Both the position numbers and the translations under genes were made by a program. From Thermococci archaeon (GTDB taxonomy: Archaea; Hadarchaeota; B88-G9): DNA of 5,918 bases. Where the stretch lies: contig QMUK01000071.1 of assembly GCA_003660555.1 (NCBI GenBank), forward strand, positions 1-5,918. The letters run 5' to 3'. Positions 1 through 5,918 of this stretch are shown in pieces (the first letter of the stretch is position 1; every line of letters begins with the position of its first letter). The notes below the pieces were generated by a model, which worked only from the letters and a program-made list of their open reading frames with translations, was not told the origin of the DNA and made no database searches.

Positions 1-10
1 GGGGAACTAT

Positions 11-862
11 GTGATTCCAGAGTCGTCTTGCGAGATGGAAATTCTCAGTGGAATACTAGAACTTCTAAGGAACAAATCAGAACCGAAACTCATGGAATTG
101 AGGGAGAGGGCAGAAGAATTATATTCAGAGACTGGAGAAACATTGGTGAAAAGTGAAGAGAAACTAAAACATAGTGAGACGAAAACTGAGGAACTGCTAA
201 ATTCTGGGATCAAAGATGAATGGCTAATAGAATATGGGTATGAGTGGATAGTCTTTGAAGAAGAAGGAAAAGGAGAGGTGTTCCGCAGCAGAAGGCCTGA
301 AGTAATACCCGGAGTGTTGATAAGTGAGGAGATAACCAGACCACCGAGAGGACAGCTCCTAGCACTGCTCATAGATGGAAGGAGAAAATACATTCTAGTA
401 AGGAACTACTCCCCCATAGACAAAGGAAGACTCTATGAAATACCCATGGTGAATGTACTCAGGAAATCAATGAATTGGACTAAGATGGATAGGAGTGTGG
501 TACTTTTAGATGAGACTAATGGGAGAAGAGCTGAAATATGCGAATTCGATGCAATAGGAAGTTTAAATAGAACCCTCTACGTTTTCGAAATAAAGAACAG
601 GGAAGTGAGGAAGTTCTCCAAGTTCTTAGACAAGGTCCTGAGATACGTAAAGTATTATCTCGCTTACTTGGAGTCTCTGAGAGTGAGAATAGATAGAGTA
701 GTCCCTCTGTTCTACGTGCGAGAGAGAATCAGAAATATAAATCAAAGAAAGAGAAACGTAATATACTTCGACGAAGTCAAAAAAGGGAGGAGAATCGAGG
801 CTCAGATAAGCTACTTAGTCAGGAGAGAGCTGATTCGTCCTCTTCCACGGAAACAGATGTAG
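11..862 (+). CDS. Coiled-coil protein with C-terminal PD-(D/E)XK-like nuclease domain
   Basis: I do not recognise a named family. Counting from the GTG at 11 it has 283 residues. Residues about 20-65 are rich in E, K and L with heptad-like spacing, suggesting a coiled coil. Residues 70-170 form a mixed, basic middle region. Residues 175-220 look like a PD-(D/E)XK nuclease core: CEFDAIG with Asp180, then a hydrophobic strand ending in Glu193-Ile-Lys195 (VFEIK), then a basic helix ending RYVKYY. This D-x12-ExK pattern resembles the catalytic core of NucS-like, Hjc-like and DUF234-type archaeal nucleases. If it is active it would cut DNA with a divalent metal, but the substrate is unknown. No signal peptide or membrane segment is seen. 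The frame is open to the left edge of the window, so the true start may lie upstream; ATG at 35 is another candidate. The gene converges on the copper-ATPase pseudogene, with 12 bases between the stops. An inactive or structural relative of the fold remains possible. Confidence 0.7.
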   Translation: MIPESSCEMEILSGILELLRNKSEPKLMELRERAEELYSETGETLVKSEEKLKHSETKTEELLNSGIKDEWLIEYGYEWIVFEEEGKGEVFRSRRPEVIPGVLISEEITRPPRGQLLALLIDGRRKYILVRNYSPIDKGRLYEIPMVNVLRKSMNWTKMDRSVVLLDETNGRRAEICEFDAIGSLNRTLYVFEIKNREVRKFSKFLDKVLRYVKYYLAYLESLRVRIDRVVPLFYVRERIRNINQRKRNVIYFDEVKKGRRIEAQISYLVRRELIRPLPRKQM

Positions 863-874
863 GAGACCCATTAA

Positions 875-1702
875 TTACTTCAGATACTTCTCTGGATTTT
901 TCTTGAACCCCTCCTCGCAGAACTTAGAGCAGAAGTTATCTCTTTGCCTTCATACTCCAACGAGCTATAGGCTTCTCTAGGATCTACTTCCATACCATAA
1001 AAACAGGGTCTTTCTTCCTCTCAACAACCAATTCAATCACCTCTTTACTATCTCCTTTCTCAGGGGTCTGACTATTAAGAGCCACTACCACGGTGCTCAG
1101 AGACATTATAAGCGCACCTATTGCTGGACTCAATAATATTCCGTGATTGTATAGCACTCCAGCCGCTAGAGGAATGGCTAGAGCGTTGTAACCGCTAGCC
1201 CAAAGCAGATTCTGTATCATCTTAGAGTAAACCCTCTTGGACACTTCTATAATACGGGACTCTTCCGGAGGTCATTCTTCACCAATATTACGTCAGCACT
1301 CTCTATGGCTAAATCGGTCCCTGCACCTATGGCCACTCCAAGATCGGCCTCGATTAAGGCTGGAGCATCGTTAATTCCGTCTCCTACCATGGCTACCTTA
1401 TTTCCACTTTCTCTTATTCTCCTTATTATCTCGGCTTTCTCCTCTGGTAAAACTCTGGAGAAGTACTTATCTATTCCCCAGCTCCCTACTAACTAATTCA
1501 ACAGCTTCGTCGTCATCTCCAGTGAGCATGTATACCTCTGTGCCCATCTCCTTGAGCTCTCTTATGCCCTCTCTTGATTCAGGCCTCACTTCGTCTCCAA
1601 GTATTATGGCTCCAGCTAAAGAGCCTCCTACTAAAACGAAGACCTTAGTTCCACCATTGATCTCAGGAGGATCTATCCCTAGATCCCTTAGCAAATTGAA
1701 AC
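875..1702 (-). pseudogene. Decayed CopB-type (P1B-3) copper/silver-translocating ATPase, C-terminal half with YHS domain
   Basis: This is the remnant of a heavy-metal P-type ATPase, an inner-membrane pump that exports Cu or Ag using ATP. Read from 1702 downward, the parts fall in several frames. First comes the end of the N domain and the start of the P domain, including VFVLVGG, GDEVRPES and MLTGD (about 1697-1477). Next is [10 protein letters not shown] and the GAGTD region (about 1473-1259). Then come the last two membrane helices, with GYN and MSLSTVVVALNS (MSLST near 1106-1092), which match the P1B-3 CopB signature. Last is a YHS metal-binding tail, GMEVDP...FCSKFC...NPEKYLK, ending at the TAA at 875-877. 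Frame breaks lie near 1474 (one extra base), 1257, 1000 and 944. The first YHS cysteine reads as Tyr. Everything upstream is missing: the N-terminal membrane helices, the CPx motif, the DKTGT phosphorylation site and most of the N domain. Homology fades at about 1700. It cannot make a working pump. Confidence 0.9.
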
Positions 1703-1790: not shown

Positions 1791-2165
1791 TTACTCGACT
1801 TCAACTCTCATTCTGTTCTCCCAGACCCCATGCAGATTGCAATAGGCTAGAGCATAGATGACTCCGCTTTTTCTTAGAGTCATCCTGAAGGTAACCTCTT
1901 GTTCTGAAATCTCTGGAGACAAATCAGCTCTAGCTACGAAGATTGGGTTAAAGTCTCTTCCATCTTCGCGGAAGTACACTTCTATCCATCTGAAGGAGTG
2001 TTGAACAGTGTTTGGGTGCTCCTCTATGTAAACTCTGACCTGGAAGGGCTCTCCAACTTTGACTTTTTCTGGAACCTCTATCTTCGGTGTATGAGTCTCT
2101 CTTTTAGATATGGCCACTTCTTCTTCCACTTCTGGAGTGTATATAATCTCACCGAATTTTTCCAA
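1791..2165 (-). CDS. Superoxide reductase, neelaredoxin type (1Fe-SOR), lacking the usual active-site lysine
   Basis: It reduces superoxide to hydrogen peroxide in the cytoplasm at a single non-haem iron, taking electrons usually from rubredoxin. At 124 residues it is the normal length for a one-iron SOR, and it lacks the N-terminal desulforedoxin domain of two-iron forms. The Fe(His)4Cys ligands are all visible: His25 in ETHTP, His50 and His56 in EHPNTVQH, Cys109 and His112 in YCNLHG. Glu23, the sixth ligand in the resting oxidised enzyme, is present. The next residue is Thr24, where most family members have the lysine that helps capture superoxide. Lys21 lies nearby. From memory, Ignicoccus hospitalis SOR has the same Glu23/Thr24 pair. 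The TTG start is chosen because a G-rich Shine-Dalgarno lies just upstream and because it gives this matching numbering. The gene follows rubrerythrin by 13 bases, so the two are probably co-transcribed, and the peroxide made here would be the substrate of that enzyme. Confidence 0.95.
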   Translation of the reverse strand: MEKFGEIIYTPEVEEEVAISKRETHTPKIEVPEKVKVGEPFQVRVYIEEHPNTVQHSFRWIEVYFREDGRDFNPIFVARADLSPEISEQEVTFRMTLRKSGVIYALAYCNLHGVWENRMRVEVE

Positions 2166-2169
2166 TTCT

Positions 2170-2177
2170 CTCCCCCC
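2170..2177 (-). promoter_or_regulatory. Ribosome binding site of the superoxide reductase gene
   Basis: Read on the minus strand, GGGGGGAG begins one base after the rubrerythrin stop and ends four bases before the TTG at 2165. It supports translation from a TTG start and independent initiation inside the two-gene operon. Confidence 0.55.
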
Positions 2178-2178
2178 A

Positions 2179-2691
2179 TTAGAATTCTACAAATTCTCCT
2201 TTAGGAGCCCCACATATGGGACAGTACTCAGGTGCCTCGTCCACTGAAGTATATCCGCAGACTGGACAAATACACACTTTCTCTATTTCCAGGTCCTTTC
2301 CCCTCTCAACAGATTCCTTTGCCTTTTTATACAGCGTAGCGTGAATCTTCTCTGCAGATAAAGCGTAATGTGTACTCCTTTCAGCCCCATCCTCTTTCTG
2401 GAACTTAGCTACCTCGTTATACACTGGATACATTTCCTCTGATTCGTAAGTTTCTCCTTCAATAGCAGTCTGAAGGTTATCTACGGTTTTCCCCATCTTC
2501 CCTAGAGAATCGTAGTGATTCCTAGCGTGTACTTGTTCCGCAAAAGCTATTGCCTTGAACAATTTAGCCACGTTTGGAAAACCCTCTTTTTCTGCAACTT
2601 CAGAGAATATCAGATACCTCATGTGGGCCATACTTTCACCACAATACGCATCTTCCAAGAACTTCCTACTCATTTTTCTCTCCACAGGCAA
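2179..2691 (-). CDS. Rubrerythrin
   Basis: Cytoplasmic non-haem diiron peroxidase that reduces hydrogen peroxide to water using electrons passed through its own rubredoxin-like centre. The four-helix ferritin-like domain covers residues about 8-128. Its diiron ligands are Glu19 (GES), Glu52 and His55 (EQVH), Glu80 and Glu83 (GETYE), and Glu114 and His117 (EKIH). The C-terminal rubredoxin domain (about 139-170) has the Fe(Cys)4 pairs Cys142/Cys145 (CPVCG) and Cys157/Cys160 (CPICG). It is 170 residues long from the TTG at 2691. An ATG at 2673 with GGAG just upstream would give 164. I keep the TTG because the six extra residues resemble the N-terminus I remember for Pyrococcus furiosus rubrerythrin, but the ATG is a real alternative. 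It is the first gene of an operon with superoxide reductase, 13 bases downstream, which makes its substrate. Confidence 0.96.
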   Translation of the reverse strand: MPVERKMSRKFLEDAYCGESMAHMRYLIFSEVAEKEGFPNVAKLFKAIAFAEQVHARNHYDSLGKMGKTVDNLQTAIEGETYESEEMYPVYNEVAKFQKEDGAERSTHYALSAEKIHATLYKKAKESVERGKDLEIEKVCICPVCGYTSVDEAPEYCPICGAPKGEFVEF

Positions 2692-2886: not shown

Positions 2887-4512
2887 TTAGTAGAGTCTTT
2901 TCATTCCCTCGAAGAACACCCCCCAGAATGGATCTTTTTCTGGCATCTTTATCTCCGAGATCTTGCCGTTTAATCTTTTAATTATTTTCTTGTTTTTCTC
3001 TTCTGTTATTTTCCCTATCACGGATGCATTTATTCCCTCCTTCTTTAAATTTCGTATTATCTCGTCAGAGTACTCTTCCTCGGAAGTTATTATCAGCGAA
3101 CCCTCAGAGATGGCCTCTAATGGGTCAATTCCAAAGAAGTCGCATACTGCCCTTACTTCTTCTGGATAGATCATTTGTGATTCATCTACCTCGATGCCAA
3201 CACCACTAGCTTGAGATAGTTCGAAGAGTCCACCGATGACTCCTCCTTCAGTGGCATCGTGCATAGCAGTGACCCCGCCAGTTTCCATAGCAGTTAAGGC
3301 ATCCTTTACCACAGTCATTTGCTTACAGAGACTCTTTGCTCTCTCTACAGTTTTTTCGGGCAATTCTCTCAGCAACTCTTCCTCTCTTAGAACAGATAAA
3401 ATTCCCACAGCTTCTATTGCTGGTCCTTTCGTTAAAATCACATCGTTTCCAGGTTCGGCTCCTTCTGGTGTAACGTATTTCCCCTTCTCGGTTATCCCGA
3501 AAACAGTGACTCCTCCTATAGTAGGGGAAGCGAATCCAGGGTAATACCCAGTATGCCCTCCTATTATGGATATTCCAAGTTCAAGAGCGGCCTCGTGTAT
3601 TGAGTTCACAATCCTTTCGAACTCCTCCTTCTTAGTTTCGGGGGGCATTAGCAAAGTATAACACATGTATTCCGGCTTTACACCCATCACCGCGACATCA
3701 CTAGCTCCTATATGTACTGTGTACCACCCAAACATCTCTGGAGGTTGCTTGGGAATAGAGAATATCGGATCTTCAGCTATTGCTAGAACCTTCCCCCCTC
3801 CGAGGTCTATTATAGCACCATCTACTCCGGACTTCGGAGGGACTAATATCCTATCGTTCCATTTCCCTAGTCTCCTCAATACTATAGACTCAAAGGTATC
3901 TGGGTCTATCTTCCCAATTTTCTCTTCTCTAGACACGTAAAGTTCAGCTATCCTGCACGCCTCATCTACTACTTCTATCGGATCTTTTCCAACTATTACA
4001 GCCACATCTTCTTTCCCTACTGCTCCTGTTTCATAGAAAACCTTTGGAACACTTCCACCAGCAGCTCTTATTGCTTCAGAGACTTTCCATGGCATAGAAG
4101 CACCTTCTTCTTTTTTAAATTCTTCTGGCTCCCTGCTCCTATCTATTACACTGAACACCCATCCTCTAGAGTTACAATAATCTCTTAACCAATCCGCTAG
4201 GTGTTCATCAACTGAAAAGTTTATTCCAGACCTAATCGACGGATCTATCTTGTTTAATTCTACTATTAGTCTCGCCATGTGGCTGGAGGCTCCGAACTTG
4301 GGTCTGCCCACAGCGTATGGTTTTCCATTAACCACTGTTATTCTACCTTCCACGCCCAAGACGTCTTCTGGACCCTTGGGGTTTGGTTTGGAGTACACTA
4401 GATTGCTCCTTACCTCAGGAATGAGACGAGAGAATTCCCTGCAATTCTCTAGCTTTTCTATGGCAAGTATCATTTTCCCAAATAATTCAAGTTCCATTTC
4501 CATTTGGGCCAC
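2887..4512 (-). CDS. Fusion of ThiN-type thiamine-phosphate synthase domain with HypE-like AIR synthase-related domain
   Basis: Predicted cytoplasmic enzyme of 541 residues with two domains. Residues about 35-195 match ThiN, the archaeal domain that joins the pyrimidine and thiazole moieties into thiamine phosphate and, in other proteins, senses it. NLVYSKPNPK (37-46), GRI (56-58) and FGASSH (73-78) are visible. Arg57 and His78 are 21 residues apart, as are the two residues I recall as essential in Pyrobaculum ThiN (Arg320 and His341), so catalysis looks possible. Residues about 205-530 form a PurM/ThiL/HypE-type ATP-binding fold: DGAIID (231-236), SDVAVMG (271-277), GGHTG (318-322) and HDATEGG (418-424). 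This half resembles HypE more than ThiL, yet it lacks the C-terminal cysteine motif through which HypE makes the cyanide ligand, so it is not simply HypE. The substrate is unknown; a thiamine phosphate kinase role is an attractive guess. The GTG at 4512 is chosen because a near-perfect Shine-Dalgarno ends eight bases upstream; a GTG at 4524 would overlap that site. Confidence 0.88.
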   Translation of the reverse strand: MAQMEMELELFGKMILAIEKLENCREFSRLIPEVRSNLVYSKPNPKGPEDVLGVEGRITVVNGKPYAVGRPKFGASSHMARLIVELNKIDPSIRSGINFSVDEHLADWLRDYCNSRGWVFSVIDRSREPEEFKKEEGASMPWKVSEAIRAAGGSVPKVFYETGAVGKEDVAVIVGKDPIEVVDEACRIAELYVSREEKIGKIDPDTFESIVLRRLGKWNDRILVPPKSGVDGAIIDLGGGKVLAIAEDPIFSIPKQPPEMFGWYTVHIGASDVAVMGVKPEYMCYTLLMPPETKKEEFERIVNSIHEAALELGISIIGGHTGYYPGFASPTIGGVTVFGITEKGKYVTPEGAEPGNDVILTKGPAIEAVGILSVLREEELLRELPEKTVERAKSLCKQMTVVKDALTAMETGGVTAMHDATEGGVIGGLFELSQASGVGIEVDESQMIYPEEVRAVCDFFGIDPLEAISEGSLIITSEEEYSDEIIRNLKKEGINASVIGKITEEKNKKIIKRLNGKISEIKMPEKDPFWGVFFEGMKRLY

Positions 4513-4520
4513 CGTACTAC

Positions 4521-4528
4521 TCACCCCC
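4521..4528 (-). promoter_or_regulatory. Strong Shine-Dalgarno that sets the start of the ThiN fusion gene
   Basis: The minus strand reads GGGGGTGA, one base from the ideal complement of the archaeal 16S rRNA tail (GGAGGTGA). It ends eight bases before the GTG at 4512. The longer reading frame beginning with GTG at 4524 starts inside this element, which argues against that start. Confidence 0.7.
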
Positions 4529-5108: not shown

Positions 5109-5918
5109 TTGAACGCCGAGGAGAAATTGAGGAGGCTTGAAGAGTGGTTCTCCCTATACGAGAGTGTACTAGTAGCATTTTCTGGAGGAGTAGACAGTGC
5201 AGTAATAGCAGCAGTAGCTAAGAGGAGCTTAGGAAAAGACAGAGTACTTGCTGTCACCATAAACTCTAGTATCATGCCGAAGAGAGAGTTACTGGCCTCG
5301 AAGAAGGTTGCAAGGGAAATAGGAGTAAAACACATGATAGTAGAGGAAGACGAACTCAAAGACGAGAGATTCGCCACCAATCCAGAGAATAGGTGCTACT
5401 ACTGTCGATCCAACTTAGCCAGAGTTCTAAAGAAAATCGCTAGGGAGAGAGGAATCCCCGTTATAGTGGATGGGACTCACTTAGGTGACACTCTAGAGCA
5501 CAGACCCGGACTCAAGGCCTTGAGGGAACACGGAATAAGAAGCCCACTCATGGAACTGGGATATGGGAAGAAGGACGTTAGAGAGATAGCGAAACTAATG
5601 GACTTGTCTGTGAAGGACAAACCTGCAATGGCATGTCTAGCCTCTAGGATACCTTATGGAGAGAGGATAACAACAGATAAGCTAAGGAGAATAGAGAAGG
5701 CGGAAGATTCTCTTCTAGGCATGGGGTTTAGAACAGTCAGAGTGAGAGCACACGGAAACATAGCTAGAATAGAAGTACTCCCAGAGGAACTATCGAGAGC
5801 ACTGGAACTTAGAGAGAAAATAGTCAGGGAATTGAAGGATTTGGGCTTCATCTACATCACATTGGACTTACAAGGCTACAGGCCAGGGAGTATGGATGAG
5901 GAGCTAAACAACAAGAAA
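5109..5918 (+). CDS. larE: LarE-type ATP-dependent sulfur transferase, 3' end beyond the window
   Basis: PP-loop ATPase of the LarE family. LarE adenylates the carboxylates of pyridinium biscarboxylic acid mononucleotide and replaces them with thiocarboxylates, a step in making the nickel-pincer nucleotide cofactor of lactate racemase and related enzymes. From the TTG at 5109, 270 codons are present without a stop. The pyrophosphate-binding SGGVDS is at 25-30. Other family marks are NPENRCYYCR (91-100), RPGLKALR (132-139), KPAMACLASRIPYG (171-184), NIARIEV (217-223) and TLDLQGYRPGSM (251-262). The last is close to the normal C-terminus, so only a few residues should be missing. Cys96, Cys99 and Cys176 are all present. 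Cys176 corresponds to the sacrificial cysteine of Lactobacillus plantarum LarE, while the extra CxxC pair is typical of forms that bind a [4Fe-4S] cluster. No larA, larB or larC is seen in the window, so the acceptor is inferred; another sulfur-modified cofactor is possible. Confidence 0.92.
   Translation, partial: MNAEEKLRRLEEWFSLYESVLVAFSGGVDSAVIAAVAKRSLGKDRVLAVTINSSIMPKRELLASKKVAREIGVKHMIVEEDELKDERFATNPENRCYYCRSNLARVLKKIARERGIPVIVDGTHLGDTLEHRPGLKALREHGIRSPLMELGYGKKDVREIAKLMDLSVKDKPAMACLASRIPYGERITTDKLRRIEKAEDSLLGMGFRTVRVRAHGNIARIEVLPEELSRALELREKIVRELKDLGFIYITLDLQGYRPGSMDEELNNKK

Follow-up and report, generated by a model that had tools for sequence, protein, structure and literature searches.

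What does a protein do in which a ThiN domain, of the thiamine-phosphate synthase type, is joined to a partner of the AIR synthase (AIRS) fold? A gene with this architecture lies on a 5,918-nucleotide stretch of DNA (the window) on contig C85 of an archaeal metagenome-assembled genome (MAG; G000, the source genome) of 1.3 Mb, in 150 contigs and 91% complete. Its features are as follows.

2887..4512, minus strand: ThiN-AIRS fusion gene, 541 aa from GTG 4512 (545 aa from GTG 4524)
4521..4528, minus strand: Shine-Dalgarno-like site GGGGGTGA, read from the sequence
3958..4467, minus strand: ThiN domain (PF10120), from Pfam and model alignment to ThiN structures
4342..4344, minus strand: codon of putative catalytic Arg57 (Arg61 from the 4524 start); Arg in 49/49 AIRS-linked rows and 30/30 other ThiN domains
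4279..4281, minus strand: codon of putative catalytic His78 (His82 from the 4524 start); His in 47/49 AIRS-linked rows and 30/30 other ThiN domains
3493..3825, minus strand: AIRS N-terminal (ATP-binding) domain PF00586 by Pfam, with motifs GVD, EDP, HIGASDVAVMGVKP and GGHTGYY
2980..3456, minus strand: AIRS C-terminal domain PF02769 by Pfam and family motifs, with MHDATEGG
2887..2934, minus strand: DPFWxxFF C-terminal tail and stop codon, in place of the HypE tail DPVPRxC

Reading frame, relatives and the ThiN half

The open reading frame, read from the sequence, extends on the minus strand from a GTG at 4524 to 2887 with no interruption. GTG 4512, the start given in an earlier note on this DNA, appears the likelier initiation codon because the stretch GGGGGTGA lies 8 nt upstream of it. 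Pfam recovered ThiN (181 bits against a cut-off of 25, covering profile positions 4-163 of 165), AIRS (63.7 bits) and AIRS_C (88.6 bits), with cut-offs far exceeded, and found no DNA-binding domain, ThiN and AIRS domains being the only ones in the protein. An AlphaFold2 model of the whole chain had a mean pLDDT of 94.4 and a pTM of 0.76.

Several other genes share the window. Downstream of the fusion, adjoining desulfoferrodoxin and rubrerythrin genes (1791-2691, minus strand) form an oxygen-defence pair, and a decayed copper-type P-type ATPase (984-1694, minus strand) retains P-domain and C-terminal pieces split by stops or a frameshift, its N-terminal part missing. Neither Pfam nor NCBIfam matched an ORF of 286 aa with an open 5' end (2-862, plus strand). 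A sulfur transferase gene of the LarE type (5109-5918, plus strand) runs divergently to the fusion, and in a Methanothrix MAG a LarE-like PP-loop gene (L116, 9393-10229, plus strand) is about 1 kb away from the corresponding AIRS gene, making two LarE cases in all.

We scanned an alignment of the AIRS half against GTDB genomes and recovered at least 587 related loci, the more distant of which may include paralogs. Among the best 80 of these, fusions in the same order occur in Jordarchaeia (L118, L119), Archaeoglobus JdFR-27 (L120) and a Methanomassiliicoccus MAG (L136), with 61-65% identity in the AIRS part. Fusions in the reverse order, AIRS-ThiN, occur among the same 80 in Moorella sulfitireducens (L174), other Firmicutes (L150, L173, L190), a Truepera bin (L179) and a Methanofrustulum MAG (L149). 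Elsewhere the two are adjacent genes, thiN then AIRS and often overlapping in Methanothrix and Methanoregula, AIRS then thiN in Dehalococcoidia, Nitrososphaeria and a Helarchaeon. The N-fused, C-fused and separate states change at least eight times on the tree among 38 scored rows. In the Bacillota genome G485, AIRS copies scoring 336-344 bits lie in open frames of 644 and 761 aa (L254, L255) and are possibly further fusions.

That the source genome is a MAG in 150 contigs could be held to favour an artefact, or a read-through fusion that arose by accident and means nothing for function. This reading is refuted, and its probability negligible, given the same-order fusion in four other genomes, the reverse order in several and the adjacent-gene form in dozens. 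The earlier note had read the locus as a single protein of a ThiN and a HypE-like domain, and the uninterrupted frame, the Pfam matches and the homologous fusions agree with it. Since most relatives from the phylum of the source genome have ThiDN (ThiD fused to ThiN) rather than ThiN-AIRS, the fusion may have entered this genome from outside the phylum. The literature searched yielded neither a published ThiN-AIRS fusion nor a paper linking AIR synthase with a TPP riboswitch. Within that literature, the ThiN and AIRS domains are known, and what is new is their fusion and the tie of the AIRS subfamily to thiamine.

The N-terminal half of the model aligns with the ThiN structures 2pb9 (Z 27.0) and 2php (Z 26.2). 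Arg57 and His78, which we take to be the catalytic positions described for Pyrobaculum ThiN, are both present at the spacing of 21 residues that had been noted earlier. Because this pair is kept and the fusion carries the only ThiN in the source genome, in which no second ThiN and no ThiE was found at 91% completeness, the ThiN half is probably catalytic, and what the earlier note had offered as a possibility becomes the expected case. AIRS-linked ThiN domains have recurrent residues of their own, R39, E89, S143, K147 and V176 (numbered from the 4524 start), against G, T, T, G and R in rows that are mostly of the ThiDN type. Archaeal ThiDN likewise joins a ThiN with the same Arg/His core to a pathway kinase; in the fusion, however, the partner is an AIRS-fold enzyme instead of ThiD, and ThiN comes first.

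Placement of the AIRS half

The partner belongs to the AIRS superfamily of PurM, HypE, SelD and ThiL, both of its domains being over the Pfam cut-offs and the fold appearing in the model. The invariant acidic positions of the superfamily are kept, and the AIRS half and its relatives have motifs of their own: GGHTG, TKGPAIE, MHDATEGG and the DPFWxxFF tail. Among NCBIfam equivalogs none passed its cut-off on the fusion; HypE (TIGR02124) scored 122.3 bits against 251.6, ThiL (TIGR01379) 103 against 184.15 and SelD (TIGR00476) 88.6 against 125. The ThiL motifs DxSDGL, GGEDY and GWDHF are not present in the AIRS half. The protein ends in DPFWGVFFEGMKRLY, with no HypE-type cysteine, whereas the HypE of the same genome ends in DPVPRIC.

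In structure, the AIRS half of the model fits HypE best (Z 36.2, 2.4 A over 322 residues, 23% identity); SelD and ThiL align at Z about 30. The trees, which were quick searches with SH-aLRT as their only support, place the AIRS half within a 48-row clade (SH-aLRT 98) separate from HypE and from the nearest archaeal paralogs. Together, this clade and the paralogs form the sister group of HypE and lie far from ThiL, and in two trees the HypE rows make a clade of their own (SH-aLRT 99-100) with the AIRS half outside it.

By these comparisons the AIRS half is assigned to a distinct subfamily, here called thi-AIRS, that matches no named NCBIfam equivalog; its distant relatives are labelled "AIR synthase family protein" by NCBI. 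It is neither ThiL nor HypE, because the source genome encodes a true ThiL (contig C80, 249.7 bits against a cut-off of 184) and a true HypE (contig C42, 375 bits, ending in PRIC) separately; PurM and PurL are also encoded. HypE is the nearest structure and the sister clade. However, the AIRS half differs from it in the absent C-terminal cysteine, in the HDATEGG and DPFW motifs and in a thiamine instead of a hydrogenase neighbourhood, and membership in HypE is ruled out by score, tail and tree. The description of the partner in the earlier note as HypE-like but lacking the cysteine motif thus holds, and the C-terminal half does not fall inside true HypE, the placement that the note had named as counting against its reading. 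With ThiL, the AIRS half has in common the fold and the pathway, but not the score, the motifs or the place in the genome, since a true ThiL coexists with it.

Thiamine gene context and co-occurring pathway genes

We compared the surroundings of 71 clade loci, mutually related and nearest to the window's sequence, with those of 26 nearest-paralog loci. A thiamine feature was defined as thiN, thiD/thiE, tenA or a thiamine-binding protein gene no more than three genes away and on the same strand, or a TPP riboswitch. It was present at 57/71 clade loci and 0/26 paralog loci (Fisher p 8e-14, a value that overstates independence because the 71 loci are interrelated and riboswitches were sought in a subset of them). 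No thiamine neighbour was found within three genes at the other 14 loci, one of which (L149) is counted there only because its ThiN part fell under the threshold of the test.

Beyond fusions and ThiN neighbours, the layouts include ThiD-AIRS-ThiE (L092, L098), AIRS-ThiE-ThiD-TenA (L139, L142), AIRS-ThiD-ThiE (L155, L161), ThiE-AIRS-ThiDN (L188) and permease-AIRS-ThiDN (L038), in which the permease (PF02133) presumably resembles the HMP transporter CytX. A Thiamine_BP gene (PF01910) lies directly upstream of AIRS at ten loci by similarity, four of them PF01910-confirmed, and at L179 thiM and thiL stand in the same cluster as AIRS-ThiN. TPP riboswitches (RF00059, above the Rfam gathering threshold) directly precede the AIRS gene or operon at 12 loci (L139, L142, L150, L155, L161, L163, L165, L170, L172, L173, L174, L188) and head the thi cluster at L179 and L189. 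Because related pairs are fused or adjacent, often under a riboswitch, across archaea and bacteria, the AIRS half is very probably an enzyme of vitamin B1 metabolism, and the thiamine role suggested for the partner in the earlier note gains strong support from gene context.

At L174 (1467-5309) and L190 (7965-13914) the AIRS-ThiN fusion neighbours methylthioadenosine phosphorylase-like and MtnA-like genes, in an arrangement reminiscent of 5'-deoxyadenosine salvage. In archaeal family f19, an AIRS paralog directly follows an ECF transporter S component (PF07155; L087 6323-7830, L103 4731-6220, L107 4513-5997), which suggests a vitamin-salvage role for AIRS paralogs too. Another paralog (L093, 5857-8549) directly precedes formylmethanofuran dehydrogenase subunit-like genes, detected through a molybdopterin oxidoreductase match.

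Nearly every thi-AIRS genome checked also has ThiL or thiamine pyrophosphokinase (TPK), so that, on gene content, thi-AIRS does not replace the TPP-forming step. Among 16 Bacillota genomes with thi-AIRS (at least 382 bits with the A2 profile), 9 have ThiL, 6 others a full-length TPK, and one, G309, neither. Replacement of ThiL had been suggested by six genomes with no ThiL over the cut-off (G168, G184, G305, G306, G309, G311). It is ruled out in the Sulfolobales-like G168 and G184, where a diverged ThiL is present and groups with ThiL, and in G305, G306 and G311, where TPK is present; of the six only G309, a Clostridia MAG, remains. ThiL and TPK are also missing from G059, a draft of 130 contigs whose congener G037 has ThiL, and from G300, a MAG of 1.5 Mb. 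The ThiL-like role that the earlier note had considered for the partner thus finds no support, given the separate ThiL on C80, the ThiL and TPK genes across genomes and the missing ThiL motifs. The note had held that separate thiN and thiL genes in the same genome would speak against it; the separate thiL was found, a separate thiN was not.

ThiE and thi-AIRS occur together in 14/28 genomes, and ThiM and thi-AIRS in 8/28, of which three have the C-fused and three the Thiamine_BP-AIRS layout, while one is N-fused and one a divergent case. No ThiM occurs in the seven genomes with a ThiD/E or permease-ThiDN layout, in the five with AIRS then ThiN or in five of the six with ThiN first, the source genome included; these are raw counts, ThiM being missing from many genomes anyway. 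It is present in 6/6 sampled genomes with C-fused or Thiamine_BP-AIRS layouts.

Candidate functions of the AIRS half

Our best single guess, and a tentative one, is that the AIRS half acts as a thiazole (HET) kinase in place of ThiM. We infer this from position: the salvage operon of Staphylococcus aureus is tenA-thiM-thiD-thiE (PMC2766623), thi-AIRS occupies the place of ThiM beside ThiD, ThiE and TenA, and ThiM is absent in several layouts. The AIRS half would phosphorylate the thiazole alcohol HET with ATP, and the resulting HET-P would pass to ThiN within the same polypeptide. The ThiN half would join HMP-PP and thiazole phosphate to give thiamine phosphate (TMP), which a separate ThiL would then convert to TPP. 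Our evidence, all of it computational, establishes the fusion, the intact motifs of its two halves, the separate clade, the ties to thiamine genes and riboswitches and the distinct ThiL and HypE genes; activity of the two halves and the HET-kinase assignment are inferences. As a whole, this proposal of a two-domain thiamine enzyme, with an active ThiN fed by an AIRS HET kinase, is one that we advance as possible, short of an even chance. Thi-AIRS is of another protein family than ThiM, and the groups that keep both argue against a single function across the clade, or against the HET-kinase guess. To our knowledge, no AIRS-superfamily enzyme phosphorylates an alcohol.

Could the AIRS half instead act on TMP or thiamine itself? 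No AIRS enzyme other than ThiL is known in the thiamine pathway, AaThiL with TMP aligns to the model at Z 30.1, the partner is fused directly to a TMP synthase and G309 shows neither ThiL nor TPK, all of which would suit a second TMP kinase, a ThiL isozyme taking TMP directly from ThiN to TPP. We disfavour this reading as unlikely, in view of the true ThiL in the source genome, the ThiL or TPK of the other Bacillota genomes, the diverged ThiL found in Sulfolobales-like genomes once thought to lack it, the missing signature motifs and a tree position with HypE, not ThiL. A salvage kinase converting thiamine to TMP, with ThiN or Thiamine_BP binding product or substrate, would explain the pairing with the PF01910 family, the TPP riboswitch control and the need of thiamine-importing ThiL genomes for TMP; but thi-AIRS also occurs in TPK genomes, where thiamine is used directly, and its usual neighbours are the synthesis genes thiD, thiE and thiN, not thiamine transporters, and we consider such a kinase rather improbable.

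ThiN-like domains serve as TMP sensors in ThiR regulators, and AIRS-ThiN fusions occur alongside ThiE in Firmicutes, as would be expected if ThiN sensed TMP and gated an AIRS kinase on another substrate, the second suggestion of the earlier note. ThiR (HTH-ThiN) likewise uses ThiN as a fusion module, but our fusion has no DNA-binding domain and keeps the putative catalytic residues, and their near-invariance in AIRS-linked ThiN disfavours a pure sensor. The fusion is moreover the only ThiN of a genome with no ThiE found, and several groups pair AIRS with ThiE/ThiD where no ThiN adjoins; a sensor is improbable. Coexistence with ThiL, TPK, ThiE, ThiN and sometimes ThiM fits a step outside the known list. 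An unlisted ATP-dependent thiamine reaction in archaea and bacteria, with amide or carbonyl activation as in PurM and HypE and with ThiN or a thiamine-binding protein delivering or receiving the substrate, is conceivable, though unlikely. That such activation would serve an unrecognised step of synthesis, salvage or repair, such as the dehydrative closure of ring-opened thiamine, agrees with the sister relationship and best structural fit to HypE. It is doubtful nonetheless, its substrate being purely conjectural and ring-opened thiamine closing spontaneously near neutral pH.

Bacterial synthesis of vitamin B1 is regarded as largely solved, and the archaeal pathway as a known gene list. The thi-AIRS subfamily is widespread and bound to the pathway by operons, by TPP riboswitches and by fusions in either order. 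If thi-AIRS is truly a HET kinase, it would close gaps in the salvage pathways of many archaea and anaerobes; should it have another activity, it would add a new step to thiamine metabolism. In either case, reconstructions in which it is called HypE, ThiL or "AIR synthase family protein" would be wrong or empty at this point.
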